DNA from: Closterium sp. NIES-65
Lineage: Eukaryota > Streptophyta > Zygnematophyceae > Desmidiales > Closteriaceae
Reading direction: 5' to 3'
Assembly (NCBI GenBank): GCA_948144175.1
Contig: CANXME010001986.1
Coordinates: 62,001 to 126,000, forward strand
DNA length: 64,000 nucleotides
The notes under the pieces were generated by a model. That model saw only the letters and a list, made by a program, of their open reading frames with translations. It did not search any database and was not told the origin of the DNA. Shown here piece by piece: positions 1-20,237 of the stretch. The position numbers and the translations under genes are program-made. Positions within the stretch are counted from its first letter, which is position 1. Each line of letters opens with the position of its first letter.

Positions 1-176
1 CGCTGTAGCGTCGGCTGTAGCGTTTGCTCTAGCAGGTCCCGCTTTCTCGCACGCTGTAGCGTCGGCTGTAGCGTTTGCTCTAGCAGGTCCCGCTTTCTCG
101 CACGCTGTAGCGTCGGCTGTAGCGTTTGCTCTAGCAGGTCCCGCTTTCTCGCACGCTGTAGCGTCGGCTGTAGCGC
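1..176. repeat. 51-bp minisatellite, about 3.4 copies, runs off left edge
   Basis: Units at 1-51, 52-102 and 103-153 are identical and a partial unit follows to about 176. A multiple of three, it encodes the 17-residue repeat of the leftward frame. Identity between units implies recent expansion. Confidence 0.9.
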
Positions 177-1723: not shown

Positions 1724-4700
1724 ATGGCGAAGCCAGGAAACCCGCGGTCGCACAGACCGCACGGGAAGGGAGGCAAATTCGGGCAGCAGAAAAAGGGTCA
1801 GAAAAACAACAAGCACCAGTACCAGAAACCCCCGTCCAAGCTCCAGCTAGAAATCGCGGAAATCCGGCAGCTCGAAGCGCGGATCGCCGCCGGCGCGCCC
1901 GCGCCGGGCTCGAATCCCCTAGCTGCGGATCTCTCCGCTCCCGCCGCTTCCGCCTCTCCCGCTGCGCCAGCGAATAGCAAAGAGAGGAAAAGGAATGCGT
2001 CAAAGGAGGGGGTGCTCGCAGCAGCAGGAGGCGGATCGACGGGCGGGAAAGGGGAATTTGAGCCGTACGTCGGCGCGAAACTGTTCGAGGAGCTGCCTAT
2101 ATCGAAGCGAACGATGAAAGGACTCAAGGTAAAGTTTGGGTTTATATAATCAGGGTTTAGATTGAGGGTTTATTGTGAAGGGCTCGTCTTATCTATGATG
2201 GTTAACTTTTAACATTTGCAGGGCTTGCGGTTATTGATGATATAAAGGGTTAATACTTGGAGGGTTATGGGGCACGGACGGGACAGGTTAAAACTGTCGG
2301 ATTCGACTCTAGTGGTGATCCGTAAACAACAATCTAACATTTTAGAATGAAGATTCGTGAACACAAAACGGATTGAACCTCTATACAGAGAGGACAGCGT
2401 TGGGTCTAAGATTGTGTCCGTCTGTTCTTCCATGAATCCCCTCTTATTCTGCCACGTGGCGCAACAGGATTCGGAGTACGTGCACATGACGGCCATTCAG
2501 CGAGCTGCAATCCCCCATGCGCTGTGCGGGAGAGACGTGCTGGGAGCAGCCAAGACAGGATCGGGCAAAACCCTCGCGTTCATTATTCCTGTGAGCTTTT
2601 TGTTCCTTTGTGTGTTCAATATACACTCAGTAGACGGGTTTTAAAGGCAATATCCCCTTGAAACATGTGCAAGACGCGTTCAACGTCTCATGCCGCTTCT
2701 CACACCACTTCTTTCCTGCAAACCTGTATCAACTTAGACCCTGTACCCTGTCCTCCTCCTCTGATGGGTTACCATCATCATGCTTCTTCGCCAATGATGT
2801 GTTTCGTCAATGTTCCCCCCTCGTTTCAGATGCTGGAGAGGCTGAATTGGCAGCGCTGGTCGCACATGGATGGCGTGGGAGTGGGCGAACGAAACGATGC
2901 AATGTGGTCCCTTAGTGCCCTTTTGAGTCGACTCAAAAGTCACCTCGCACATGGATGGCGTGGGAGTGGGCGAACGAAACGATGCAATGTGGTCCCTGAG
3001 TGCCCTTGTCAGGCAAACCTACTCCCCGCCCTCTCCCTTCTCTCCGCTCCAATCTTTTGTTTCAGCTGCTGGAGAAGCTGCATCGGCAGCGCTGGTCGCA
3101 CATGGATGGCGTGGGCAAGCGATGCAGTGTGGTGTCTTACTACACTGACCAAGAACACTCCCCTTCTCCCCACCCTTTTGTCTCTCGTTTCAGTTGCTGG
3201 AGAGGCTGCATCGGCAGCGCTGGTCGCACATGGACGGAGTGGGCGGCATAATCATATCGCCCACGCGGGAGCTTGCCACCCAGATCTTTGGCGAGCTCAA
3301 GAAGGCCGGGCGGCACCACCCGTTCTCGGGCGGCCTGCTCATCGGCGGGCGGGCAGGGAGCGTGGAGAAGGAGAGGGAGCGTGTGCAGGTGGGAGGGTGA
3401 ATCCTTGCATGTGTTTCACATTTGTTTTGAGTCGTCTCAAAGCTGATTGGCGGGCGGGCAGGGAGCGTGCAGAAGGAGAGGGAGCGCGTGCAGGTGGGTT
3501 TGTGATCATCTGTTTTTTTTTTGCCCACCTTCGTTTTTTCGCATTGCACATTACATTACTTTGTGCATATTCCGGTCATCTGCTACTCTCTGCTTGAGTG
3601 CTTAAGCGGATGTCGATGAGTCAAGATGTTACTCTCTCCTCCACCCTCTTTCCCTGCCAGTCTTCCTTCCTCCAACGCCCCTTCATCCCCTTGTGACTTT
3701 TGTGTCGACTCAAAAGTCGCGTTATTTCCAATCCTTCTTCCCCCTCTTGTCCTCTCCACCACCAGTCCCTCAACATCCTCGTCTGCACGCCCGGTCGTCT
3801 GCTGCAGCATATGGACGAGACACCCAATTTCGACGCATCCAACCTCCAGGTATGCTGCTATTCACAAACATATGTGTGCACATCTCCTGTGTTCACCTGA
3901 AGGTGCACGCCCGGTCGCCTGCTGCAGCATATGGACGAGACACCCAACTTTGACGCATCCAATCTTCAGGTACGCGATTCGGTGTGTTTCTACTTAATTC
4001 CAGCCACTCGTACAACAAACCTAATCAACAAGATGGAGACGGTAAAGTGAAACCTGTTGTCGGTGAGCAGTAATTTTACTCGTTTTTTCTTCTTCCAAAG
4101 ACTTTGTTCTTCCACCTCGGCGTCATCTTCTTTTCTGCCTTCAACGCCTCTCCCCTCCTGGTGCTGGTTTTGGACGAGACCACATTCTAAACATGGGTTT
4201 GAAACACTCATTCACGAACTCTCTTATCCCTCCCACTGCACTGCCCTCCCCCCTTCTCCCTCCACACCTTGTCCCCACTCCTTCCAGATGCTAGTGTTGG
4301 ATGAGGCCGATCGGATTCTAGACCTGGGATTCGCCGCGGCTCTCAACGCCATTATCGCCAACCTGCCTCCACCCCCGCACCGCCAAACCCTCCTCTTCTC
4401 CGCCACGCAAACCAAGTCCGTGCGGGACCTCGCCCGCCTCTCCCTCTCCTCGCCCGAGTACCTCTCTGTGCACGCCGAAGCAAAGGAGGCGACTCCCCTA
4501 AGGCTCCAACAGACGGTGATGGTCGTGGAAGCTTCCCAGAAGCTGGACGTGCTGTGGAGTTTTCTGAGGAACCACCTGCAGAAGAAGACAGTTGTGTTTC
4601 TCAGCAGCTGCAAGCAGGTGGGTGCGGATGGGTGAGAGCAGCCGCATTCAGGTGAGAGCAGCCGCATTCAGGTGAGAGCAGCCGCATTCAGGTGAGAGCA

Positions 4701-7700
4701 GCCGCATTCAGGTGAGAGCAGCCGCAAGCACGTGGGTGTGAATTGTGTGCAAGCATGTGGTTTATGCCACGTGCTATGGAGATTCTTGAGGAACCACTTA
4801 CAGAAGAAGACGGTCGTTTTCCTCAGCAGCTGCAAGCAGGTGGGTTTCAAGTCGACTTAAAAACTAAGCAGGTGAGAACAGGTGCAAGCAGCCAGGTGAG
4901 GGTGTGAATGGCATGCAGCCTCTCTCTCCCTCTCTCTCCCTCTCTCTCCCTCTCTCTCCCTTTCTCTCCCTCTCCTCGCCTGAGTACCTCTCTGTACACG
5001 CCGAGGCGAGGGAGGTGAGCCTGCTCGCCTCACCCTCTCCCTCTCTAGCCTCTCCCTCTCCATCTTGCCGGTAGCCTGCTCGCCTCACTCTCTCCCTCTC
5101 TAGCCTCTCCCTCTCCATCTTGCCGGGTAGCCTGCTCGCCTCTCCCTCTCTAGCCTCTCCTCGCCTGAGTACCTCTCTGCGCATGCTGGGCCGAGGGAGG
5201 CGACTCTGTTGCGACTTCAGCAGACCGTGATGGTCGTGGAAGCTTCCCAGAAGCTGGACGTGCTGTGGAGCTTCCTGAGGAACCTGCAGAAGAAGACGGT
5301 CGTTTTTCCCAGCAGCTGCAAGCAGGTGGGGAGAAATGAGGATTTGGAGATGGAAGTGAGCAGGTGATCGGGATAGGGATTGAGCCACTCTTCCCCACCC
5401 CCATCCCCCTTCCCACTTCTCCCCTCCCCATTCCCCTCCCCCCTCCCCTTCCCTCTTCCCCTTTCCGCCTTTCCCCCTCCCTCTTCCCTTCCGCATTTCC
5501 CCCTTCCTCTTCCCCACTTCTCTATTTCAGGTGAAATTCGTGTTTGAAGCCTTCAGAAGGCTGAGGCCCGGCATTGCCCTGAAGCTGCTGCACGGGCGCA
5601 TGAAGCAGATGACCCGCCTCGCCTCCTTCTACGACTTTTGCGAAGCCGACCACGCAGTGCTGTTTGCCACGGATATCGCTGCGAGAGGACTGGACTTCCC
5701 TGCTGTGGATTGGGTCGTGCAGGTGAGAGTGCCTTGAGTTGACTTTAGTTGACTTCTGTGACTCGGATCATGCAGTTTTGTTTGCCACAGATATTGCTGC
5801 GAGAGGGCTTGACTTCCCTGCTGTTGACTGGGTCGTGCAGGTGAGTGCGTGGTTTGTTGACCTGGGTTGACTTGGTTGACTTAGTGTCCTTTGACTCTGT
5901 TCACTCTTGTACATTTCGTTGACTCCCGTTGACTTGGTTGACTTACTCTCCTTGGACTCTTGTGCATTTTGACTCCCGTTGACTTTGTTGACATACCGCG
6001 TTCTTTTGCATCCCAATCTCACCCCCCCCCCCTCCCCACCTTCCAGGCGGACTGCCCTGATGACGTGGCAACATACATTCACCGTGTTGGCCGTACGGCC
6101 AGGTTCAATGCATCTGGACGCTCGCTGCTGCTGCTCACCCCTTCTGAGAAAGCCATGCTGCCGCTGCTAGAGGCCGCCAAGATCCCGTTTTCGCTAACCA
6201 AGGTGCGTGCTGCCTCTGCTACAGGTGCGGTTTCTTCTGCTCGCTCACCGCCTCTCTAACATCGAAGTGCCTTGGCTGCTTGCTCACTCTAACATCTGAG
6301 AAAGCCATGCTGCCGCTTTTGGAGGCAGACAAAATTCAACCTCTAGCAGCATGAACCTTGAATGAGCCGAAATTCCCTTTCCTCTAACCAGAGTAAGTTT
6401 TAGCCGATTTAATGCTCACTCAACCCCCTTTTTGGCTCAGTACGATTCTGCACACTCCATCAAATGGGTCTCTCGACTCAACCTCGCGAAACGCACGGCC
6501 AGGTTCAATGCATCTGGACGTTCCTTAAGATTGTTCCTTGCGCCCCGCCTCCTAATGGATGCCTCTCCCCTCCCTTTCCTTAAGATTGTTCCTTGCCCCC
6601 CCGCCCCTTCAATCCCAACAGGCCTAGATCCAGCCAAGATGCAGCCCATAGCCCACTCGCTGGCAGCGCTGCTCTCAAAGGACTCTGAGATTACAAGCCT
6701 TGTCCTTACCATCCCACCCCACCGCACCGCACTCCACCGCACCCCACCGCACCCCACCCCACCGCACCAAACCCAACAGGCGAACCCAGCCAAGATGCAG
6801 CCCATAGCTCAAGCGCTGGCAGCTTTGCTCTCAAAGGACTCTGAGATCAAGTACCTGGCACAGCGCTCCCTCGTCACCTACCTGCGCTCCGTGCACCTGC
6901 AGGTATGCATGTGATGCATGTATGGAGTATACATCCATGCACATGGGCATATATGTATCTATGTGTATGTATGTGTGTATGGTATGGAGTATGCATGTGT
7001 GTACCGCTGCTTTCAAAGGACTCTGAGATCAAGTACCTGGCACAGCGCTCCCTCGTCACATACCTGCGATCCGTGCACCTGCAGGTATGACCCTATAATG
7101 TATGTCTACATAAACATATGGATATATTTCTTTTAAATGTGTTCACACACATATACAAATACCTCATTCAGCACGCCTTTGTTACCTACCTATAATCCGT
7201 GCACCTGCAGGTATGACATCTGGAGTATGTACATGAATGTATGAGTGCGTATGTATACACTAAAAATATATTATACATATATATACATGTTACATACATA
7301 TAAACACGACATTATTGTATGTGTGAAACCTAATCTCCTCCTTGCCCTTCCCTTCACCCACCCACCCCCACTCCCTCCTTCCTCCCAATGCTCTTCCCTC
7401 GGGTAGAGCAACAAAGAAGTTTTTGACGTGACCAAGCTGCCCGTGGAAGAAATCGCGGCCTCCATGGGGCTGCCCAACCCGCCAAAACTTCGCTTCCTGA
7501 AAAAAACGAAGGGGGCGGGAGAGAAATCAGGGGATGCACACGGGAAAGCGGAAGGGGCAAAGGGGAAGGGGGAGGGCGGGAAGGGGAGCGTAGGGGAGTG
7601 GAAGGGGCAGAAGATTCGATTTGGGGATGATGAGAGTGATGCGAGCGAGGAGGGGAGTGATGGTGAGGGTGATGGTGAGAGTGATGATGAGATTGAGGGA

Positions 7701-9377
7701 GGAATTGAGAGAGGGAGTGAGGGAGAGGAGGATACAGATGAAGAGAGGGAGAGGGAGGAAGGGGAGGAAGGGGAGGAAGGGGAAGAGGAAGAGAGAAGGG
7801 AGGGAAGGAAAGAAGTAAAGAAGAAGAAAACAAAGCTGGAGCGGCTATTTGGGAGAACCAACAAAGGGGTACTGTCGGCCTCTTATGATAGGCTGAGAGC
7901 AACTGAGGATGAGGAGAAAGAACCAGGAGAAGGAGGGGAGGAGGGGGAAGGAGAGGAGGATGAGTTACTGCGGGTGAAGAGAGTGAATCATCTGCTAGAT
8001 GGGGAGGAGAGGGAGGAGGGGGAGGGAGGGGAGGAGGGACTGAGTGGGGCGGCCACCGCAGCAGAGAAGAAGCGGGTGCTTAAGTAAGTGTGCAGTTCTG
8101 GAATTGCAGCATATGTTGCTGCCATTCGTTTGTAGCTAGTGTGGGTGGAGTCATCATGAGTTTTGAGCTTCATCGGCTCTGAGTCGCTTCCCTTTTTGCA
8201 AGTTTCAATTTCGAGGGGTGTTCAAAACACCCATTTTATAAACACACCACGTTATTGCTCCACTCCTCTCGACCCTTCCCCACCCCTTCTTCCTCCCTCC
8301 CTCGTACCTTTTTTTTTTGCTGCTCTCAGCTCGTTGACTCTTTCCAGGAAGCAGCGCAAGAAGCTTCTCTCAGGCCCGGGCCGACATGGCGGCACGCGGT
8401 TGGTCTTCGATGAGGAGGGCAACCCGCTGCCGCCCCTTGCCGCCCTTGCCTTGGAAAAGGACAAAAACGGAGGGGTGGCGGCAGAGGGGGAGGATGCTGA
8501 GCTGGCAGCTGCCGCCCGGGCAGCTGAGGAAAGATTCCGGCAGCTGCGGGAGGAGATGCAGCAGAAGGATTTGGAGGACCGGGCAGCTGAAAAAGAGCGT
8601 CTGCGAATGAAAAAGCTCAAGGAGAAGTTGAAGGTGAAGAAGCGGGCAGGAGAGGGGAGGGAGGAGGGGGAGGAGGGAGGGCGGGTGGTAATGCTAGGCA
8701 AGGGAGTTGATGATGATGAGAGTGATGAGGAAGAGGAGGAAGAGGAGGAGGAGGGGGATGAGGAGGAGGAGGATGTGAGGAGGGGGAGAGGCAAGAGGAA
8801 GGGTGGGAGGAGTGGAAATGATTATAGCGAGAGTGAGAGGGAGGACGAAAGGGGGTCTGAAAAGGGCGGTGTACAATGGAATGAAAGTGATAGTATGGAG
8901 GGTAGCAGTAGTATGGATGAAGGGGCAAGGGAGGGGGGCTATGGGTTATACTCTAGTGGAGACGAGGGGGAGGACGTGGAGGAGAGAGAAAGAGGGGGGC
9001 AGAGAGGGGGGCAGAGAGGGGGAGGGACAGGGGGAGGGGAGGAGGAGGAGGTGCCTGAAGCAGTACCTTTGGAATGGGGCGCACAGGACCTTGCACGGGC
9101 GAGGAAACAGCAGAAGGGGCGGCATGAGTTGGTGCAAGGGAGGGGAGCAGCAGGAGCAGTAACGGGGGGGAGGAGAGCAGGAAAGAGAGTGATATACGAG
9201 GGGCAAACATCGGAGGAGCAAGCAATCTCGAGCAGGTCTGGCAAGAAGGCTAGGGTGGGCGGGTTGGAGGGTCAGGGGAAGGCGGCAGGGAAGGTTGCTG
9301 GTGGTGAGGGCGCGGGGTTGGGACTGGCAGAGCAGGAAACTTTGGTCCTCCGGCTGCTGGCTGCCAAGCGCCAATGA
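1724..9377 (+). CDS. DBP4: DEAD-box ATP-dependent RNA helicase, DBP4/DDX10 family (ten exons)
   Basis: Exons by splice sites and homology: 1724-2128, 2468-2590, 3194-3388, 3766-3849, 4288-4617, 5531-5722, 6047-6202, 6780-6902, 7407-8083, 8348-9377, joining in frame to 1104 residues. All introns are GT-AG; the first eight junctions are phase 0, the last phase 2. Helicase motifs: Q-motif glutamine 146, AAKTGSGKT 162-170, PTRELA 199-204, TPGR 249-252, DEAD 274-277, SAT 307-309, [10 protein letters not shown] 425-434, HRVGRTAR 455-462. Dbp4/DDX10 proteins act in the nucleolus on U14 snoRNA release and early 18S rRNA processing; the linker after motif VI ([12 protein letters not shown]) is typical of this family. 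The C-terminal half is a very acidic and lysine-rich low-complexity tail, making the protein longer than yeast Dbp4 (about 770) or human DDX10 (about 875). Residues 1-100 are basic then Ala/Pro-rich. Partial exon copies lie in most introns; the exons listed are the intact ones. Confidence 0.95.
2830..3116 (+). repeat. Partial copies of the head of helicase exon 3
   Basis: Segments 2830-2880 and 3066-3116 repeat the first ~51 nt of exon 3 (3194 on), each preceded by a TTTCAG-type acceptor. A further part copy with downstream sequence (2946-3006) repeats 2867-2927. Only the copy at 3194 continues into the PTRELA motif. Confidence 0.85.
3441..3493 (+). repeat. Copy of the tail of helicase exon 3 with its splice donor
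   Basis: Repeats the last ~53 nt of exon 3 (ending at 3388) nearly exactly, including the CAG/GTGGG junction. No intact acceptor is visible. Confidence 0.85.
3904..3969 (+). repeat. Copy of helicase exon 4 with its splice donor
   Basis: Repeats the last 66 nt of exon 4 (ending 3849) with few silent-type changes and a retained CAG/GT donor. An AG just before 3903 could act as acceptor, so alternative use cannot be excluded. Confidence 0.85.
4158..4200 (+). repeat. Decayed copy of the head of helicase exon 5
   Basis: Resembles the DEAD-motif coding start of exon 5 (4288 on) but is diverged and interrupted, so it is an older duplicate than the others. Confidence 0.6.
4631..4730 (+). repeat. 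20-bp tandem repeat, five copies
   Basis: Unit begins GGTGAGAGCAGCCGCA; copies at 4631, 4651, 4671, 4691, 4711, the last one variant. It lies just inside intron 5, so each unit repeats a GTGAG donor-like word. Confidence 0.95.
4768..5325 (+). repeat. Three partial copies of helicase exon 5
   Basis: 4768-4839 repeats the last 72 nt of exon 5 with its CAG/GTGGG donor. 4971-5014 repeats a middle piece ([13 protein letters not shown] region). 5153-5325 repeats the last ~170 nt, again ending at a CAG/GTGGG donor, with small losses relative to 4288-4617. CT-rich microsatellite (about 4918-4975 and 5025-5160) separates them. The upstream copy (4288-4617) is the complete exon. Confidence 0.85.
5764..5840 (+). 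repeat. Copy of the tail of helicase exon 6 with splice donor
   Basis: Repeats the last ~77 nt of exon 6 (motif V region) with mostly synonymous changes, then CAG/GTGAG as in the real exon. Confidence 0.85.
5841..5995 (+). repeat. Degenerate GTTGACTT repeat in intron 6
   Basis: Many GTTGACTT-like words spaced irregularly through the intron. Simple low-complexity sequence; no gene. Confidence 0.7.
6294..6522 (+). repeat. Fragments of helicase exon 7 in intron 7
   Basis: 6294-6337 and 6370-6391 resemble the exon 7 end, and 6495-6522 matches its middle (the TARFNASGR coding stretch). They are scrambled in order relative to the exon at 6047-6202. Confidence 0.75.
6622..6693 (+). repeat. Copy of the head of helicase exon 8 with acceptor
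   Basis: Repeats the first ~72 nt of exon 8 (6780 on) behind an identical CCAACAG acceptor context. It loses similarity after the SKDSEI codons. Confidence 0.85.
7006..7210 (+). repeat. Two copies of the tail of helicase exon 8 with splice donors
   Basis: 7006-7084 repeats the last 79 nt of exon 8 nearly exactly and ends CAG/GTATG; 7169-7210 is a shorter, more diverged copy ending the same way. TATG-rich intron sequence surrounds them. Confidence 0.85.
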
Positions 9378-9557
9378 GCTTTGAAGTGCCTTACAAGCTG
9401 GGCTGGTCTTAAGATGCCTCTGAATCTGGACTGGCAGAGCAGGAAGCTTTGGCCCTTCGGCTGCTGGCTGCCAAGCGCCAATGAGCGCCGTGCTGGTATG
9501 GGGACTTGCGGGGATGCCTGCAGTGGCAGCCAGTCACAGGAGTATGATGGTACGGGG
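9378..9557 (+). repeat. 3' flank of the helicase gene with a second copy of its last codons
   Basis: 9428-9485 repeats the end of exon 10 (AEQE..LLAAKRQ plus stop context). The sequence then runs to the 5-bp target site CGGGG (9553-9557) of Copia-B. It is probably 3' UTR or a tandem duplicate of the gene end. Confidence 0.8.
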
Positions 9558-9664
9558 TGTTGGGCTGAGTGCCCCTTAGGATCTTTGGTAGGGTTAAACT
9601 CTGAGTAAAGTGATGTAGTAGCGGAAGCGTTTAAATGAAGTCCTTGAACCACCTTGCGCTGGTA

Positions 9665-9683
9665 CCGTCACCCCCCGGATATA
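9665..9683. repeat. Left terminal inverted repeat of the pogo-like transposon
   Basis: CCGTCACCCCCCGGATATA, exact inverse of 20219-20237. Confidence 0.95.
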
Positions 9684-9982
9684 AGCGCCACCCTAGGATA
9701 AGCGCCTGGCGCTTCTAATTGGCATATGGCGCTTATATCCCCTCCTCGATTATAAGCGCATACCCTAGAGTCGTACGGATTATAACCGCATACCTGTACC
9801 TTACACATTATAACCGCCACTTTTTTAAATATTTTTTTTCTACAAACTTCACTAACCACATAAACAACTTATATTTTCATCTAATTAAATACAAAGTCAG
9901 TTTATCTACAGTTTTTTCTAATTACAGTTCTAAATCTACCTACGAGTCTCACAGGCTACAGCAATTTCTAGATCTACGTAAT

Positions 9983-12900
9983 CTAGTCATCAGCTGCGGT
10001 AGGATCATCCGGGTCGGCCTCAGAGTCCGACTCTGGTTCTTCTACGTTGTTGCAGAAAAAGCCATCTGCTGCAATGTCGTCGTCGATGTCTATTTCGTCG
10101 CCCTCAAGCTCGTCGCGCCTGTGTTGCAGGCAGATCTTGTCCTGGGACCCATCCAGGGCGTTACTAATGCCACAGGTGAGGAAAGCCCGTTGAATCAAGT
10201 CCCTGGGCACGGCCTTCCAAGCCGCTGATATCCACTTGAGCGTTAGCTCGGGTGGTGGCTTCTTGATGTTGCCTGCCATAAAATTTAAACAATCAAAAGT
10301 CAGCCACCGCTACAAACTGATAAAGCAGCACAGGCATGGCCTGCCTCTCTCACCTTTCTTTGTCAAGGTGTCGACCCCCTCGCTCTCGAACCACTCCTGG
10401 TAGAGCTGTCGAACGGATGCCTTGAAGGAGCGATTCACCGCGACGTCCAGAGGTTGAATCTCCGAGGTGCAGCCAGCTGGGATAACGGCAGGGACGATGT
10501 TCAGCTCCCCGAACTTCTTCTTCACCTCCGCAGTCAGGTGCCCGCGGTACGAATCCAAGACGAGCATCGCTTTGCGGGGCCTCACTCCAAACTTGGTGTG
10601 GACGAATGGCTTCACTGCCCCGTCGAGCCACTCAATGACTCCGTCCGCGTCCATCCAACCGTTGGGATGGACGGACACCGTAACATCTGCACAGCCACAA
10701 ACGCACATACAACATCAGTAGACATTGAAAAAAAAAAACATGCAGCAGTGGGTGTTAATGCTCACCTGAAGGGAAATCCCCTTTAGGCAGGGTCTTCCGT
10801 TTGAAGAAGACCCACGGCTTCAGCTTCTCACCGCTGGCAGTGCAGGCGAGCATCACCGTAACTCGCTCCTTCTGATAGCCGCCGCTGCGGATAGGCACAG
10901 AGCGCAGACCCACCTCCTCGACTGTGCGTTCGGCAGGCATCTCGAGCCACATTGGTGTCTGGTCCGCGTTTATTATCCACTGCGGGTCAATCTTGTATTG
11001 GCGGCGGGTGTGACGCACGAACTGAGAAGAATTGAACGAGAATGAGATGAGTATGAACGAAGTGAGTACAAATAGGAAACCCTAATTGTGTTGTACCCCC
11101 TATGGGATACCCCACTATAGCCTACACAAACAAGTAAGCTATATGTTCTGACACACCCCCATAGGCAAAGTGGGGGAGAACAAGGGGTCACAAGACCAGT
11201 CAAGCAAAGCAAAACAAAGCTCAGGGTGGATCACAAAGTCACCACGCATTCCGAGCACAAGTTCAAAGGCCACAAGGCCAGTTCACATGCAAGATCATAT
11301 ATAGAGGTATACAAGAGTCAAGCAAGCAAGAGCAAGAGTATATATATGCGAAGGTACAAGCAAGGTCAAGAGGAGAGCAAGTGAGGCAAGACAGGCACAA
11401 GACCCAACTGCGTGCAGCAACGCTGATGATCACAAGGCGCAAGTGCCTTGGTGAAGACATCAGCAGTGTTGGCCTCAGAGGCCACGTACGCAAGTCGCAG
11501 TTGTCCACGCTGCTGTAGCTCACGAGCAAGAAAGTAGCGAAGAGCAATGTGCTTCGTTCTGTGCTCCAGTCGCTGCTCTCGACACAAGGCCAGCATGGCC
11601 TTGTTGTCTACGTACAGGACTGGAGGAGAACGAGGCTGCTCTCCAAGGTCGGTCAGCAGGTAGGTGAGCCAGCGTAACTCCTGTGCAGCCATAGCCCCAG
11701 CGTAGATCTCAGCCTCACAACTGGAGCCGAGAACAGAAGACGAGCGGGTAGCCCGCCACGAGACAGAGCCGGAACCAAGGCTGAAGGTGTAACCCTGTGA
11801 CGACCGCTGCGTAGCCTGGTCGTCAGCCCAAGAAGCGTCTGCGTGCCCAGTGAGGACCACTGGACTGCGCCCTCCAAGCACTAGCCCCATGCCCGACGTA
11901 CTGCACAAGTAGCGCAACACCCTCTTCGCTGCAGCCATGTGCTCTGGTCGGTGTCTCCCAGGAGCAACAAAGCGTGCGAGAATGCTAAGAGGGTATGCGA
12001 GGTCAGGTCGTGTGCAGGTCATCAGGTACATGAGGCAGCCAACAAGCTCTGCAAACGGGCCACTCGACTCTACGGACTCATCCGAAGGCAGAGCTGAGAG
12101 CGAGTGGCGAGTAGGCAGAGGAGTGGCCTGAGGCGAGGAGTACGTGAAGCCGAAGCGCTGAAGAACCTGCTGCACCATGTGTGACTGAGTCAGGGTAATG
12201 GTGCGGCGTGCTCTGTCCCGGGTGATCTGCAAGCCAAGGTAGCTGCGCAGTTCACCCAGGTCAGTGCACGTGTGTCTCTTCTGCAGCTCGGACTTCACGT
12301 AGGCGAGTCCAGCAGTGTCAGCTGTGGCAAAGACCAAGTCGTCGACGTACACGAGGATGTAGAACGGCGGCAGAGAGGTGTCGGTGCGCAGAAACAGCGA
12401 CGGGTCGGAAGTGGAAGGAGCAAACCCAAGTGCCGCGAGCGTAGTCCTCAGTGTGTCGTGCCACTCACGTGGCGCCTGGCGGAGACCGTAGACTGGACGC
12501 CGGAGGCTCCACTGGGTACCAGGAGGGAAAGACCCAGTGAAGCCAGGTGGGCGACGCAGCCAGATCTCCTCGTGCAGGCTGCCCTGCAAGAAAGCTGTGC
12601 TGAAGTCGAGAGAGTGCAGCTCGTAGTCACGGTGAGCAGCAACGTGCAGCAGAACCCGAAGAGTGGTCATCTTCGGGGTGGGGGAGAAGGTCTGAAAGTA
12701 GTCAACCCCCTGCCGCTGACTGAAGCCACGAGCCACGTAACGCGCCTTGAAGACAGGCGGAGAACCCGGCGGCCGCTTCACCCTGAAAATCCACATGCCA
12801 CTGACGATGTTCGCCCCAGGAGGGGGAACAGCGTCAACGTAGGTGCCTGTGGACTTCCAGGAAGCCATCTCTGCATCCATAGCTGCCTGCCACTGAGAGG

Positions 12901-15900
12901 AGTAGGGACCCTCTATCGCCTCCGCGTAAGAGCGCGGAGTCGGGATGTCTGGTGCATCCGGGTCTCCCTTAGGGGCTAGCAGTACAGACGCGAGACGAGG
13001 TGAAGCGGCGGCCAGACACTGGAACTCCTCCTGCCTGTCCTCAAGGACGTCCGTGCCCAGGGCACACTCACCCCCGACGGACGGAGGACAGGCGGACTCA
13101 GACTCAGTGACAAGACGAGCAGCGTAGTCTAGACGACAGCGCGCAGCAAAGTCGACGAGCTCAGTGACAAGGGCGGACGCAGCAGACGACTCGAAGGAGG
13201 GGTCAGTGACAGCAGTAGCCAGGAGACGTGTGACAGTAGGACTGGCAGCACGAAGAGAGTCCGACTCCGGGTCGGCAAGAGCAGGAAGAGAGGAAGCAGG
13301 AGGAGAAGGCAAAGGGGCACGCAGAGGAGCAGTGGACGGACGCAGTGACATCCGGTGCGTGCCAGGGACAGGAGGAGGACGCTGACGCGACCCGCGACCA
13401 CTAGCGCGCTCAGTACGAACAGGCGACACAGGACGAGACGCAGGCTCACGACGCTCAGTAAGACCTCCAGTCGGACCAGTGTAGGGAGAAGGAGCAGGCA
13501 AAGGGGAGGCAGGCTGTAGCTGTGGCTGTGACCGGACAGGCTGCGGACCCTCTAAGGGAGGAGGAGGAGGTGTAAGACCAAGAACCTGCTGCAGGAGCGG
13601 AACGAAGTACGGTCGGGGCCGCGCGGCGACGCTAGAAACAGCAGGAACAGCACCAGCAGCCCCGGCAGGAGCACCCACTCCAGCAGCACCTCCAGCAGCA
13701 CCACCAGAAGCTCCAGAACCCCCAGCCGCAGCACCAGGAGCACTGTCAGTCGGACCGCCAACGGCAGGCTCAGCGCCAACACCCTCAGCAGGACCAGCTC
13801 CAGGAGAACCCTCAGACCCAGCAGCTCCAGCACCCACAGTACGAGTACCGGCGGGACGCGCGGCAGCAGGACCCTCTGCTGCCGAAGAACCACCCGCACC
13901 AGCAGCACGCCTCCAGCGCCTGGCAAACCACTCACGCAGCTCCTGTGGGGAGAGTGGCTCCCGGCGAGACGAAGCACCCCCAGGCACAGCACCTCCAGGC
14001 TCAGAACCCCTAGACACAGCACCCCCAGGCGCAGCACCCCCAGGCTCAGCACCCCCAGGCACAGCACTCCCAGACTCGGCACCTCCAGGCTCAGCACCCC
14101 CAGGCACAGCACCCCCAGGCTCAGCACCCCCAGGCTCAGCACCCCCAGACTCGGCACCTCCAGGCTCAGCACCCCCAGACTCCGCACCCCCAGGCTCAGC
14201 TCCCGCAGCAGCACCAGAGTCACCAGTGACCTCGACAGGCTCGACCGCGTCTACCTGGGACACACCTGAAGGGGCAGGACCCTGAGGGGGGAGGGGGACT
14301 ACCGGGGGGGGACCTGGTACCAAGAAGAGCGGGGGTGGGGGGAGGGACGGAGTGCGGTAGGGGAAGAGACGGTAGTAGGGTACCGACTCGTCGAACGTGA
14401 CGTCCTGGGAGGACAGAACACGTCGAGAGGTGGGGTGGTAAAACTGCCACCCAGGGGCGTCGGGGGGGAACCCCAGGAAGACGCAGGGAGAAGCACGAGG
14501 GGACAGCTTGTCCGCAGACAGGTCGCGAACAAACGCCCGAGATCCCCAGACCCGGAACGCCGACGCATCGCCAACCTTCCCCGTCCACAGCAGGGCTGGG
14601 GAGGTCTCCGGTCGAGAGACCCTGGGGTGGAGGTTGACCTGGTGCGCAGCGTAACTGACCGCAAACGGCCACAGAAAATGGGGAGCAGCCGCATGCATCA
14701 TGGACGTACGAGCGACGTCCATGACCATGCCAATGCGGCGCTCAGCAATCCCATTCTGCTGTGGTGAGTCCGGAAGCGTGAAGGTCTGACGGATGCCTCG
14801 CGCACGACAGTAGGCACTCAGGAGGCCAGAGGAGAACTCTCCGCCTCTGTCCGAGTGCAGACGTAAAACAGGGAAGTCAGAGCCAAAGCTCCTCCGAAGC
14901 TGGAGACGAGCTGCGCGGATCCAGTCGATCAACACCTCAGTGACCTCACCCTTGCTGCGCAAGGGGAAGACTGTGGTGTAACGCGAGTAGTCGTCAACCA
15001 CCAGCAGGAAGTAGCGCTCCTGACCCTGTCCACGGACGCGGGCTGGGCCCCACACGTCCATGTGAAGCGTCTGCAACGGGGCCTCTATCGGAGGAAACTG
15101 GGAGGAGTGAGGGGCAGCACGCTGGCGCCCCTCGACACAGGGGACACAGGTGGGGCCAGGGCCCGGAGGAAGGGGAGGGAGAGACCGGGGAAGACCAGAC
15201 ACAAGGACTCGCGAGGCCATGCCTCTGAGCCGAAGCAGAGAGGGGTGGCCAAGGCGGTGGTGCCAGAGGAGGGTCTCGTGAGACAGACGACGACACGAGC
15301 AGGGGGCAGACTCAGGACCAGACCTGGACGCTGCAGCAAACACCTGACCAGACGTAGGGACCCTACCAGACTCAGCACCTGGAGGAGAAGCAGTGGTCAG
15401 TGTGTAGAGGCTCGACCCTGGCCGACGTGTAAACGTAGCCAGGTGGCGACCTGTATCCGCCTCCGTGCAGTGGGTCACCCGCTGACGAGCAGGGGTGAAC
15501 TGGTGGACACCCGCATCCTGGAGGTCAGCACCACTCACCAAGTTCGTCGAGAACGAGGGGAGGTAGAGACCAGTCAGGATGCCAGAGGGGGCCGCCGGAC
15601 ACGGGAGGACAGTGGAGAAGCGAGACAGGACAGGCCCCCCAGAGGGGTCAGCCAGGGACACCGCAACCGGCCGACTCAGCGGCGTGAGAGTGGTGCGGTC
15701 CCTAAAGAAGGAGCGAGACGCTCCAGAGTCAAGGGTGAAGGTGTGAGAGGCCGAAGCCGACACAGTACCTGAGAGGGCAGACTCACCAGTACCTGAGAGC
15801 ACAGACGCACTGGCACCTAGAGCAGCAGCCTCACTAGTACCTGACGCGGCAGTACCAATGCCCGGGTCAGGCGGGAAACACCGGTAACAGTCATCCTCAT

Positions 15901-16224
15901 CACTACCAGTCACAGCATACATAGCAGAGAGAATAGCATCAAAATCAAGATCATAAATAGCTACACCAGCCCTAGACAGCTCTCCCCAGCGGGGGATCTC
16001 AGCGGCCTCCGGAAACTGCTGACGCCAGGCGTCGGTCAGGCGGCCAAAGCAGCGGCGGGCTGTGTGGGCGCCTCCACACCTCTCCCCTGCACGGTCACCT
16101 GTGCGAAGAACGTAGGGGCAGGGACCAAGCGCACCACCACGCTGACGCTGCAAGTACCACTCACGGAGCTGCTGAGGGCCGGGGACGGTGCGAGAGCGCT
16201 GCTGCTGCTGTGGCTGCTGCTGCG

Positions 16225-16255
<31 letters not shown>

Positions 16256-19200
16256 CTGACCACCCCCAGAGCTGCTCCGCTGGGACGAGCCACTCCGACC
16301 CCCGCCTCCACCGCCACCCCCGCCTCCACCGCCACCCCCGTCTCCACCGCCACCCCCGCCTCCACCGCCACCCCCGTCTCCACCGCCACCTCCCCCACCA
16401 GGACCGTCGCTCCCACCGCTCCCACCGCCTCCTCCGCTACCACCTCCGCCGCCACCTCCGCCTCCACCGCCGCCACCAGTACCTCCACTCCCGCCACCAC
16501 CCCCACCGCCACCCCCACTCCCCCCGCCACCCCCACCGCCTCCTCCACCGCCCCCTCTAGTTCCACCCGCTCCCTTGCCCCCTTTGCCCTTGCCAGAGCG
16601 GCGTCTGCCGCTGGGGGCAGACGCCGCGCCGACCGACTCAAAACCAGTGAGGTCGGCCGCAGCGGCAGAGGCGACAGAGGGCAGCAGGGGGGAAGGACCA
16701 CACCCCTCAAAGATGGGGGTGCGAGGGTCACCCCGAGAGGCCCCTACAGCGACAATACTCTTCTCAGCCGCTAGCAGGGACTCCTCAAGGAGATCGACAG
16801 TGAGAGTGGTGGGACAGACAGAGAGAAACTGGTCCCTAACGGCACGAAGGGACTCAGGGAGACGGGTGACGAGAAAGTAGAGAGTGATGTACATGGGAGG
16901 AGGGTTCGCAGCGCGGAACTCAGCAGGAAGGGCAGCGCGGTAGCGGGTGTCACTAGCACGGAGGTGGGTAACGAGGTCAGCAACAGTGGGAAAGGAGGCG
17001 AGGTCAGGGAAGAGAAACGGTAGCATGAGGCGGCTAAGGGTAGCGGAGGAAGGGGAGGAGTAGCGTGCAACTACAGCGTCGTACAAGGCCTGAGCGGTCT
17101 TGCACTGACTAAAGTGGGCACGCTCAGAGGAAGGGAGGTGGCGACGCACAGCAAGACGTGCAGCAGCATCGCGGGTCGCCCACTTGGAGCGAACGGCAGA
17201 GTCAGCATCAGCAGGTGGGGCAGGGACAGCGCCAGAGACAAAGTCAAAGAGAGAGACCTCATCTATCGCATCACAGAGTAAGTACAGCTGCAGGTCTTCA
17301 ATCCAGACGGCAAAGTCAATGGCCCTCCCCTCAGCGTCAAACGTAAGGACATTGGGGGTGGCCATGGCAGCAGCTGAAAGTCTCACCGGGCTGGGAGAGT
17401 CGGGTAGTGCAGCAGCAGAGGAACACAGCTCAGGGACAGCGGCACGGCTCGGGCGGCTCGGGTTGCTGGGGCGGCGCGGGCGGCTCGGGCGGCTCGGGCG
17501 GCTCGGGCGGCTCGGGCGGCTCGGGCGGCTGGGGCGGCTCGGGCGGCTCGCGCGGCTCGGGCGGCTCGGGCGGCTCGGGCGGCTCGGGTTGCTGGGGCGG
17601 CGCGGGCGGCTCGGGCTGCTGGGCTGTACGGGCGGCTCGTGCGGCGCTGGTGTCGCGACGGGCGGCTCACTGGCGGCTCGCGGGCGGCTGCACAGGCGGC
17701 TCAGGGACGGCGGCGCGGGCGGCTCAGGGAGCTCACGGGCGGCTGCGACGGGCGGCTCGCGGGCGTCGGGCGCTAGGGCGTTGGGGCGACGGCGGGCGGC
17801 GCTCAGGCGTTCGGGCGGGCGGCCGTAAGGGTGAAAGGGCGGGCGGCGCTCGGGCGCTAGGGCGGGCGGCCGGCCGTCAGGGCGCTCGGGCGAGTGGCGC
17901 ACGGGCGCTAGGGCGGGCGGCCGTCAGGGCGCTAGGGCGAGCGGCGCTCGGGCGCTAGGGCGGGCGGCCGTCAGGGCTCTAGGGCGGGCGGCGCTCGGGC
18001 GCTAGGGCGGGCGGCGCTCGGGCGCTAGGGCGGGCGGCGCTCGGGCGCTAGGGCGGGCGGCGCTCGGGCGCTAGGGCGGGCGGCGCTCGGGCGCTGGGGC
18101 GGGCGGCCGTCAGGGCGCTAGGGCGGGCGGCCGTCAGGGCGCTAGGGCGGTTGGCGCTCGGGCGCTAGGGCGGACGGCCGTCAGGGCGCTAGGGCGGGCG
18201 GTCGTCAGGGCGCTAGGGCGGGCGGCCGTCAGGGCACTAGGGCGGGCGGCCGTAAGAGGAGGGAGCAGCGGGAGCGCGACGGTAGGGGCGACACGCAGGG
18301 TCGCTAAAAAAAAGGGCGCGCGCCTCGGGGCGCGCTTCGGTGGGCCCTAGGAACAGTCCCTAGGAGGGGACCTGCTCTGATTCCATGAGAAGAATTGAAC
18401 GAGAATGAGATGAGTATGAATGAAGTGAGTACAAATAGGAAACCCTAATTGTGTTGTACCCCCTATGGGATACCCCACTATAGCCTACACAAACAAGTAA
18501 GCTATATGTTCTGACACGAACTTCCAGAAATTCCTGACGTCAGTCTCGCAGTCTGGGAGTACGGGTGGGAGGGAAAGAGAGAAGACAGTATTAATGACGC
18601 GTTAAAATTCAACCGTGAAACATAAAGAGACAAACAACACAAAGCAGTACACATTAAACTGCAACCATTTCCCACAAACTCACTGGCAGCAAGCTTCTGG
18701 CCGACCCTGGTCTTCGCTCGGGTTGTCAGATTCCAACGGCGGCGAAACCACTCAGTCCACCGCTGCGAGCCGGACCACTTTACCTGTGGGTGCAATTCTT
18801 TCATCACCTCATGCGACCACTTCTGTAGGCGAGCGATCGAGACCGCGAGACATTTTTTACGGTGGGCAAGAAACCTCCTGTAGACTTCAGCTTCCATGTC
18901 GCGATACCACGAGCTCCTTCCGCGCCCATGAAGACGCTTGCGAGCAGCATGCGCGCCCTCCAGGTCAGCCTTCCGGGTCTTCCATTCTGCGAGTGACCTT
19001 CGGGAGATGCCGGTTTGGCGAGACATCTGCCGCACGCTCATGTGCCCGGACTCAAGCTTGAGAATCCACTGCAGTTTCTCCTGCGATGTGTAAGAGTGCC
19101 GCTTGTGACTTGAAGGCTTGTGCCTGGGGGAGGGAGGACGGGCATCGCGATTCTCGCGAGAAGGGTGGGGCCGTTTCTTATTGGGGGGGGGGGAGGTGGG

Positions 19201-19749
19201 AATAGGCAGGTGCTCTGGAAGACCGTCGGCAGCCCAAAACTCCACGTCATCCTCCGCACCAGCCGCGGATTCGTCCAACGGGCAATCAGCCGGGGCTCCC
19301 CAGCGTGGCGACGGTGCGGAGGAAGACGATGCGCCACCAGCGCGGTCGGGCTCGGACAGGTACGCGTCAAACGCCGAGTAGCCAGGAGGGAGGAGAAGCT
19401 GCAGGACCCCCTGACGTGGAGCACCAAACACAGGCGGGTCAGGAGGGGACGGAGGAGCTGGAGGAACCGGAGGCGCCGGGGGAGCGGGAGGTGCAGGAGG
19501 AGTTGGAGGAGTGGGAGGAACGGGAGGAGCTACTGGTTGACACGGAGGGACGGGCGCAGGGCGCGACTGCCATTGAGAGTAGTCACAGGTGTCTCGGCGG
19601 GTGTTTTCTCTGGCAGCAGGATGGCGGCGGAACAAGAAATGCGTGCGTGGAAGGCCCGCCATGGCCACGGCAGGCCAAACGAACAAAGAAACTGAAGGCA
19701 AAAGTCGAGAATGAGGGTTGTATGAAGCCCTCGCCCGAGACCCCTTCAT
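9983..19749 (-). CDS. Pogo/CENP-B-type DDE transposase, interrupted by Copia-A1
   Basis: Exons on the minus strand: 19749-18684; 18552-18517 joined across the Copia-A1 insertion to 11017-10766 (the CGAAC target counted once); 10686-10354; 10272-9983. All junctions are GT-AG, phase 1; ancestral product about 658 residues. N-terminal Pro-rich and acidic region, then a helix-turn-helix (SYTSQEKLQWILKLE ... TGISRRSLAEWK), a second Tc5/CENP-B-type DNA-binding block (residues ~270-350), then the catalytic core with Asp386 (INADQT), Asp496 (MLVLDSYRGH) and Asp532 (IQPLDVAVN), spacing typical of pogo DDD enzymes. The C-terminal tail is acidic. The start at 19749 is the first Met of the open frame; Met at 19662 is an alternative. 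Apart from Copia-A1, which lies in the second exon, I see no disabling change. The product would cut at TA. Confidence 0.88.
11023..11153 (-). repeat. Copia-A1 3' LTR
   Basis: 131 bp, one difference from the 5' LTR. Confidence 0.97.
11366..17365 (-). CDS. Copia-A1 gag-pol polyprotein
   Basis: About 1999 residues from the MATP start shared by the other copies of the family; the open frame extends upstream only through leader repeats. Order: gag capsid-like block (~1-230), long poly-Gly region, poly-Gln stretch, a Cys/His knuckle of unusual spacing (CGGAHTARRC preceded by a distant Cys), protease DSGAS, GAG-pre-integrase (HHRLGHPS, CVPC), integrase core (DVWG, HSDRGGEF, AERR), a linker of GGAEP-type repeats, copia reverse transcriptase with YVDD, and RNase H (GHADASWADD). 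Function is retrotransposon replication in virus-like particles. No breaks seen. Confidence 0.95.
17383..18250 (-). repeat. Copia-A1 leader minisatellites
   Basis: Between primer-binding site and gag: GGCGGCTCG units (about 17440-17640) and units of about 21-23 bp built from GCGCTAGGGCGGGCGG (about 17760-18250). Extremely GC-rich. Confidence 0.85.
18386..18516 (-). repeat. Copia-A1 5' LTR
   Basis: 131 bp, TGTCAGAACATATAG to TTCTTCTCA in element orientation; pairs with 11023-11153. Confidence 0.97.
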
Positions 19750-19951
19750 TTTCGCGGCCCGGCCTCCTCTGCGGGAAAAGGGTGGCCCCAGTCAAGATTC
19801 CCCGCAGAGGAGCTGAGCTGGGCAGCTCCTTGCCTCGGTGGCGGGGAATTTTGCTGTTGATGGGCATACCGTGGCTGAACCACGACGTGCCCACGATCGC
19901 ATGCAACCCTGATTGGGCCGCTGTGATGCGAGGTACGTGTGCACTGGCATG

Positions 19952-20024
19952 GGCCAGGTTCACGTTCGATGAACCTGGCCTGGCCAACAAGGCGTGGAAG
20001 GCGTGAAGCCACGCCTTGTTGGCC
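19952..20024. repeat. Two adjacent perfect hairpins in the pogo-like transposon
   Basis: 19952-19980 has 11-bp arms around a 7-nt loop. 19982-20024 has 16-bp arms (GGCCAACAAGGCGTGG) around an ~11-nt loop. They lie upstream of the transposase start, in its probable 5' UTR or promoter. Confidence 0.85.
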
Positions 20025-20218
20025 GTTTCACGCGCAATGCATGCACAGTTTCGAACGTTCTCGACCCAGGTGAATCCGCCTTTGAGAATGCTTCGATTTG
20101 GTATATTTAAAAACAAAATTCAATTTTGACAAATTATAAACGCCGGCGCTTATAAATTTACTATATTATAAGCCCACCCCCTCAAAAAAACATGTTATAT
20201 TATAGCCCCCCATGGGGG

Positions 20219-20237
20219 TATATCCGGGGGGTGACGG
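20219..20237. repeat. Right terminal inverted repeat of the pogo-like transposon
   Basis: Exact inverse of 9665-9683, followed by the TA duplication. Confidence 0.95.

Follow-up and report, generated by a model that had tools for sequence, protein, structure and literature searches.

Partial copies of exons in the introns that adjoin them, the subject of this study, were examined in a DDX10/DBP4-like helicase gene of the alga Closterium sp. NIES-65, within a 64,000-nucleotide stretch of DNA (contig CANXME010001986.1 of assembly GCA_948144175.1, positions 62,001 to 126,000; hereafter the window), and in further genes of the same genome. Several described processes resemble this pattern. Repair-mediated proximal duplications (Pace et al. 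2009, PMC2671141) are likewise short (at most 619 bp in that work) and local, and can carry exons and splice sites into introns. However, the human survey in the consulted part of that paper has 4 partial exon/intron donors in 824 events, compared to 38 of 58 exons with copies in tandem polarity here, and the ratio of nonsynonymous to synonymous change (Ka/Ks) of its two full duplicated exons was not different from 1, compared to ratios (dN/dS) of 0.12-0.19 in the present study; that survey also removed insertions less than 50 bp from their template in order to exclude tandem duplications. AGGT-type intron gain, as described for ATP2A1 (Hellsten et al. 2011, known here in part and as cited elsewhere), shares with the present case a tandem duplication that leaves the protein unchanged, whereas in Closterium it is the introns already present that lengthen, most copies lack a usable AG/GT pair, and no new intron is shown. 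Tandem exon duplication giving mutually exclusive exons, according to the relevant portion of PMC9013439, also repeats exon sequence in the adjoining intron, but the copies reported here are partial exons only (0 of 94 are whole). Intronic exon copies are not mentioned in the consulted sections of PMC10407611 on Closterium genomes, and literature searches, whose listings were limited, found no report of the pattern in this organism.

The exon-copy pattern is real, widespread in the sampled genes, and unusual in density. An initial annotation of the window had claimed that the helicase exons left partial copies in the adjoining introns, and every group of copies that it listed was recovered when each exon with 40 nt on either side was searched against the gene with its exons masked (expectation value E<=0.01). 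This search returned 16 plus-strand and no minus-strand alignments: three for the head of exon 3, one for its tail, one for exon 4, four for exon 5, one for exon 6, two for exon 7, one for the head and two for the tail of exon 8, and one for the gene end. Copies lie in seven of the nine introns (introns 2-8) and downstream of the stop codon, while the same search found no exon copy in introns 1 and 9. Comparison of exons 1-9 with all nine introns at E<=0.01 yielded 14 alignments, none on the reverse strand, against a mean of 0.075 in 40 dinucleotide shuffles of the introns. At E<=1e-4, all 13 of 13 helicase alignments fall in an intron touching the copied exon. Identity of copy to exon ranges from 75 to 96%, and the suggestion of several duplication rounds with copies of differing ages is supported as differing divergence.

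The helicase gene comprises ten exons that join into an open frame of 1104 codons plus a stop, with introns that start with GT and end with AG (TAG for the intron preceding exon 9) and a mean intron length of 482 bp. Its product contains DEAD, Helicase_C and CTE_SPB4 domains, and its nearest solved relatives are DDX10 (2pl3) and HAS1/DDX18; the first two domains, the SPB4-type C-terminal extension and these relatives identify it as a DDX10/DBP4 helicase. The match to DDX10 2pl3 reaches 280 bits over 213 amino acids, the listed DDX10 chain being only 236 amino acids long; HAS1/DDX18 chains outscore it, but over a longer stretch. The exons, each placed by the open frame of the joined exons, and the copies are as follows (window positions).

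1724..2128, plus strand: exon 1, start codon at 1724
2468..2590, plus strand: exon 2
2820..2879, plus strand: exon 3 head copy with acceptor, intron 2, 92% identity
2945..2964, plus strand: short exon 3 head piece opening a second 85-bp-spaced unit, intron 2; the second gene copy (C43) lacks unit 2860-2944
3053..3116, plus strand: exon 3 head copy with acceptor, intron 2, 91%
3194..3388, plus strand: exon 3, also matched by DDX10 2pl3 (5.4e-15)
3442..3498, plus strand: exon 3 tail copy with donor, intron 3, 93%
3766..3849, plus strand: exon 4
3904..3975, plus strand: exon 4 tail copy with donor, intron 4; five exonic differences, all third-position and silent
4160..4200, plus strand: decayed exon 5 head copy, intron 4, seen by eye only and not reported by the alignment search
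4288..4617, plus strand: exon 5
4717..4738, plus strand: short exon 5 end copy, intron 5, E 8e-4
4769..4845, plus strand: exon 5 tail copy with donor, intron 5, 87%
4964..5018, plus strand: copy of an internal exon 5 piece, intron 5, 89%
5145..5330, plus strand: exon 5 tail copy with donor, intron 5, 84%
5531..5722, plus strand: exon 6
5751..5873, plus strand: tandem copy of exon 6 tail and intron start, intron 6, from alignment and a 118-bp tandem-repeat period
6047..6202, plus strand: exon 7
6275..6335, plus strand: exon 7 piece copy, intron 7, 80%
6492..6523, plus strand: exon 7 piece copy, intron 7, 94%
6596..6691, plus strand: exon 8 head copy with acceptor, intron 7, 84%
6780..6902, plus strand: exon 8
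7008..7089, plus strand: exon 8 tail copy with donor, intron 8, 96%
7156..7231, plus strand: second exon 8 tail copy, intron 8, 75%
7407..8083, plus strand: exon 9
8348..9377, plus strand: exon 10, stop codon at 9375-9377
9428..9486, plus strand: copy of the final 57 bases of the coding sequence, stop codon included, 3' of the gene, 95%

Where a tail copy extends to the end of the exon it takes in the donor, and head copies take in the acceptor, in agreement with the proposal that the duplications contain splice sites. The eight donor-reaching tail copies run 5-33 nt beyond the donor, although five of these extensions are only 5-6 nt and one is 7 nt, which shared donor consensus could account for; the three acceptor-reaching head copies run 10-26 nt ahead of the acceptor. 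Long outer flanks accompany copies of exon 6 (+33) and exon 8 (+20 and -26).

The same pattern, which the initial annotation had suggested looking for in other genes, is present in sampled DEAD-box and chaperonin exons. Exons were drawn from Pfam DEAD and Cpn60_TCP1 matches (55 of 146 listed rows), with one row per gene pair where recognisable, within the fetched loci; after subtraction of one row without a locus and four second copies, 50 exons remained, with exon ends outside the DBP4 gene assigned by splice-site score. Thirty-three of these 50 exons have same-strand copies within 1.5 kb (84 plus versus 2 minus alignments). Polarity was examined in 58 exons (9 from the helicase gene and 49 from DEAD-box and chaperonin genes, excluding the doubtful frame C1103:504702), 38 of which have partial copies, with 94 plus versus 2 minus alignments; shuffled flanks of this set gave no exon-copy alignments. 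A cross-gene control with the other locus unmasked gave 9 alignments in 7 of 174 trials, presumed to be paralogous helicase or chaperonin exons though individually unchecked, and an earlier control that was not restricted to other genes gave 8 alignments in 5 exons. Among tRNA synthetases (PF00133), the match table alone contains 20 same-strand pairs within 1.5 kb with at least 60% profile overlap, counted over 49 of 52 rows (three with stops being excluded) and including both paired gene copies.

Among the 94 alignments, 42 are copies of exon heads lying upstream and 32 are copies of exon tails lying downstream, with no head copies downstream, no tail copies upstream, 20 internal pieces, and no whole exon; polarity is therefore without exception in the 74 of 74 alignments that contain an exon end. 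Eleven of the 42 head copies form one array, in a chaperonin gene, of a 124-bp tandem unit that contains the exon head (11 rows). Regular units that include part of the intron measure 118, 124 and 132 bp, the last at locus L028, where 125 bp are repeated at 132-bp spacing; in many other copies the intron part is unalignable. Turnover is visible between paired gene copies at 22 loci: of 15 indels measuring at least 15 bp, two of which lie in the misaligned pair L057/L058, nine are tandem units. Separately, the chaperonin gene at L059, L060 and L061 holds a short-unit array (22-bp shift) derived from an exon piece, which is 220 bp longer in one gene copy.

A duplication geometry with one breakpoint in the exon and the other in the intron is well supported, since such duplications place head copies upstream and tail copies downstream, as observed. 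Because the copies carry a splice site together with its outer flank, the introns must have existed beforehand and been enlarged, most plainly in the cases with a long flank. Small tandem duplications, spaced mostly at ~100-300 bp, would be gained and lost fast in the genes of this organism, and those with exon/intron breakpoints may be tolerated because the outer copy of the splice site still allows the intact exon to be spliced. Each tolerated duplication would lengthen an existing intron, leaving in it the copied exon head (upstream) or exon tail (downstream). Whole-exon copies are lacking, and selection presumably removes duplications that change the protein. The possibility that a single event creates both a head and a tail copy was also considered and rejected: the head-copy end and tail-copy start lie within 20 nt of each other in 6 of 12 exons (P 0.26 and 0.45).

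Differences between copies and exons are concentrated at third codon positions. Counts by codon position are 144:108:486 in 90 alignments, a set that still counts the 124-bp array along with exon 10's spurious low-complexity match to exon 9, and 131:94:457 in 76 copies of 37 exons when DBP4 exon 10 and the array are excluded; DBP4 exons 3-8 alone give 13:9:67. The dN/dS ratio is 0.18, 0.12 and 0.19 in three identity classes, the class means of synonymous divergence (dS) between exon and copy are 0.10, 0.27 and 0.39, and the nonsynonymous rate is below the synonymous rate for all 12 mutation types. In exons with two copies (24 pairs), 45:35:126 differences fall on branches private to a copy and 8:6:44 on those of the exon alone. 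Rows of at least 28 codons show between 0 and 0.46 silent differences per codon. The silent bias is well supported as fact, its cause less so; because most differences are synonymous, the copies are something other than mere decayed duplicates of the adjoining exon. Relative to the initial annotation, what is new is this mainly synonymous divergence, the exceptionless polarity of end-containing copies, and the widespread occurrence of the pattern.

Present-day changes inside the copies look different. Recent differences between paired gene copies are distributed 7:6:8 by codon position inside exon copies (6:6:6 after dropping three low-complexity DBP4_E10 rows) versus 5:10:24 in exons, and a decaying tRNA-synthetase pair in the same genome, used as a neutral yardstick, gives 6:5:8. 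By Fisher's test, the recent copy changes compared with the 126/206 of the copy-private branches give P 0.06, or 0.026 without the three low-complexity rows. If constraint is taken as 0.08 for codon positions 1 and 2 and as 0.8 for position 3, the two-copy branch counts yield an estimate that the copies have been unconstrained during about one fifth of their separation from the exon.

Silent differences between exon and copy, combined with copies that look neutral now, imply divergence as functional sequences before the two became neighbours. We lean towards the view that tandem turnover and recombination in a hyperdiverse or hybridising gene pool leave fragments of other alleles in introns. 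Copy and exon would have diverged as two functional gene versions before adjoining, each functional during most of that divergence; the gene pool, a hyperdiverse population or a set of hybridising lineages, would hold very divergent versions, and recombination would bring a young copy that arose in one version next to the exon of a different one. Such a pool would account for the silent bias and for copies that look neutral at present, and likewise for the broad range of divergence and the poorly alignable intron flanks. High silent diversity is known in Schizophyllum commune. A literature search on Closterium diversity found nothing relevant. According to the portion of PMC10407611 on these genomes, the sister strain NIES-4550 is of hybrid origin with recombination between sequences of differing origin, more than half of ortholog groups are duplicated in both NIES-65 and NIES-4550, and NIES-65, whose assembly spans 876 Mb with a mean intron of 485 bp, was sequenced in its haploid phase. 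More tentatively, the introns could be a fossil record of the gene pool, in which copies preserve functional alleles or lost subgenome copies that differ from the resident exon by up to ~0.4 silent substitutions per site; if so, the silent diversity of such an alga, hyperdiverse or hybridising, could be read from one haploid genome, its introns being constantly rebuilt by tandem duplication and loss.

It is important to note that several observations count against an origin of the copies in other gene versions. Divergent versions were not found: a DNA search in which the initial 1.5 kb of the helicase gene served as query returned only two near-identical full copies, and across the aligned parts of 29 paired loci the divergence is 0.03-2.6%, far under the exon-copy dS. 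Only the pair L079/L080 is more divergent, and it appears to be in decay and not functional in both copies. This second tRNA synthetase-like gene pair (C1749:2304901-2306400 and C946:127701-129200; 94.4% identity) has local direct repeats of exon sequence, and 11 of 19 changed codons in one exon are amino-acid-changing. Copies sharing the same breakpoint, which would be expected to drift once truncated, remain biased towards third positions (15:13:41 in a hand sum of 11 pairs that excludes the C43:1716749 array and the C1103 frame; the script total including arrays is 19:15:73 over 69 pairs), which requires recurrent breakpoints or refreshing of copies by unequal exchange. Intron flanks beside copies are often unalignable though the exon part is >90% alike, and only 2 of 9 exon allelic sites match the copy, four of the nine lying in a misaligned pair. 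Seventy of 88 rows are free of frameshifts, the neutrality test comprises only 18-21 sites, two of which (C2050) are perhaps one event, and exon ends outside DBP4 rest on splice-site score.

The main alternative, which is unlikely although less so than those that follow, holds that the copies derive from a second, diverged subgenome of an allopolyploid phase, later lost or overwritten, instead of from a diverse population. It accords with the near-identical pairs on different contigs that make up most of the Pfam match rows, and with the genome-wide duplications and hybrid relative of this organism (PMC10407611, in the portion cited above); however, the range of silent differences per codon is broad for a single split, and no diverged third homologue was found among the matches listed.

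Simple tandem duplication in a single lineage, after which the copy just decays neutrally, would yield the geometry and polarity, the arrays that include intron sequence, and the present neutrality of the copies, but it predicts, by our own estimate for a constrained exon and a free copy, a third-position share of at most ~0.47. The observed share, 486 of 738, has P ~5e-25 against 0.47, with the caveat that copies of the same exon lack independence, and branches private to copies show the bias too. Mutation biased towards third positions might rescue this explanation, yet the 6:5:8 of the tRNA-synthetase pair speaks against it, and decay by itself is improbable.

An equally poor prospect is that the copies are alternative exons, spliced in for part of an exon and hence kept coding. 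The silent bias would fit, as would the retention of the donor GT in 27 of 28 tail copies and the acceptor AG in 17 of 22 head copies, the real sites being partly score-assigned. However, none of 31 head copies has a donor-like GT near its inner end, while only 2 of 32 tail copies have an acceptor-like AG there (30 of 32 lack one); switching at an AG/GT pair is possible in 19 of 63. Indels in the copies, found in 18 of 88 rows, comprise 27 frameshifts versus 6 in-frame changes, and recent changes (7:6:8 or 6:6:6, both small numbers) show no present purifying selection of the kind that functional alternative exons would be under. With 0 of 94 whole-exon copies and the inner splice site mostly missing, the copies do not have the form of mutually exclusive tandem exons either.

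The initial annotation had invoked tandem duplication of AGGT-containing exon segments as a route to intron gain or growth. Growth stands, given the copied outer flanks, but gain is very improbable: tandem duplication is real and AG|GT occurs at a possible switch point in 19 of 63 head and tail copies, yet the needed pair of exon AG and copy GT (or the reverse) is confined to those 19, its donor score is nearly always weak, and the outer intron flank in the copies indicates that introns predate them. Assembly error is hardly credible, for although repeats are hard to assemble and each comparison among L030-L033 has 44-49 gap openings, the identity of the DBP4 copies is 75-96% and not complete, and both assembled gene copies contain them.

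Partial exon duplication is thus a large source of intron sequence in these genes, affecting about two thirds of the tested exons (38/58) compared to a handful in the human survey (PMC2671141, in the part cited above). The pattern opens intron growth, and the tolerance of splicing for intact decoy sites beside real ones, to testing. If the silent bias holds, one genome could measure old allelic diversity or hybridisation in a close algal relative of land plants.

The second assembled copy of the helicase gene (C43:853621-866500) has 32 substitutions across the 7.65-kb gene and aligns through all of the exon copies. Six indels separate the two gene copies, three of which are unit-like at 55-85 bp (85, 60 and 55 bp). 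Identity to the C43 copy is 99.9% over window positions -3412 to 2922 and 97.5%, gaps counted, over 2945-9664, and 13 of the substitutions lie in exon 10; given this drop in identity and these substitutions, the two gene copies look, from their sequences, as though they had recombined near intron 2. Window positions 9665-20235, ~10.6 kb, are missing at the corresponding C43 position, so insertions distinguish the two gene copies; this segment contains a DDE_1 transposase-like frame (10313-10714, minus strand) and a 2185-codon open frame (11366-17923, minus strand).

Fewer local direct repeats are found in the remainder of the window than in the helicase gene, though old exon-free repeats would escape recognition. 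Introner elements would show as similar introns dispersed over the genome; a genome search limited to window positions 1724-3200, which take in intron 1 and the larger part of intron 2, matched only the two helicase gene copies and a 30-base palindromic repeat. This palindromic TTTTGAGTCGACTCAAAA-like element occurs at window positions 2921-2944 and 3425-3447, in introns beside exon copies, and a stretch of ~30 bases within it has matches at many sites genome-wide. The palindrome (TTTTGAG..CTCAAA) was considered as a cause of breakpoints, a role that was dropped: a hairpin lies within 15 nt of 3 of 78 breakpoints versus 2.1% of random sites, and the motif is present at 2 of 78 versus 0.7%. An exact 51-bp tandem repeat of 3.4 copies occupies window positions 1-175.

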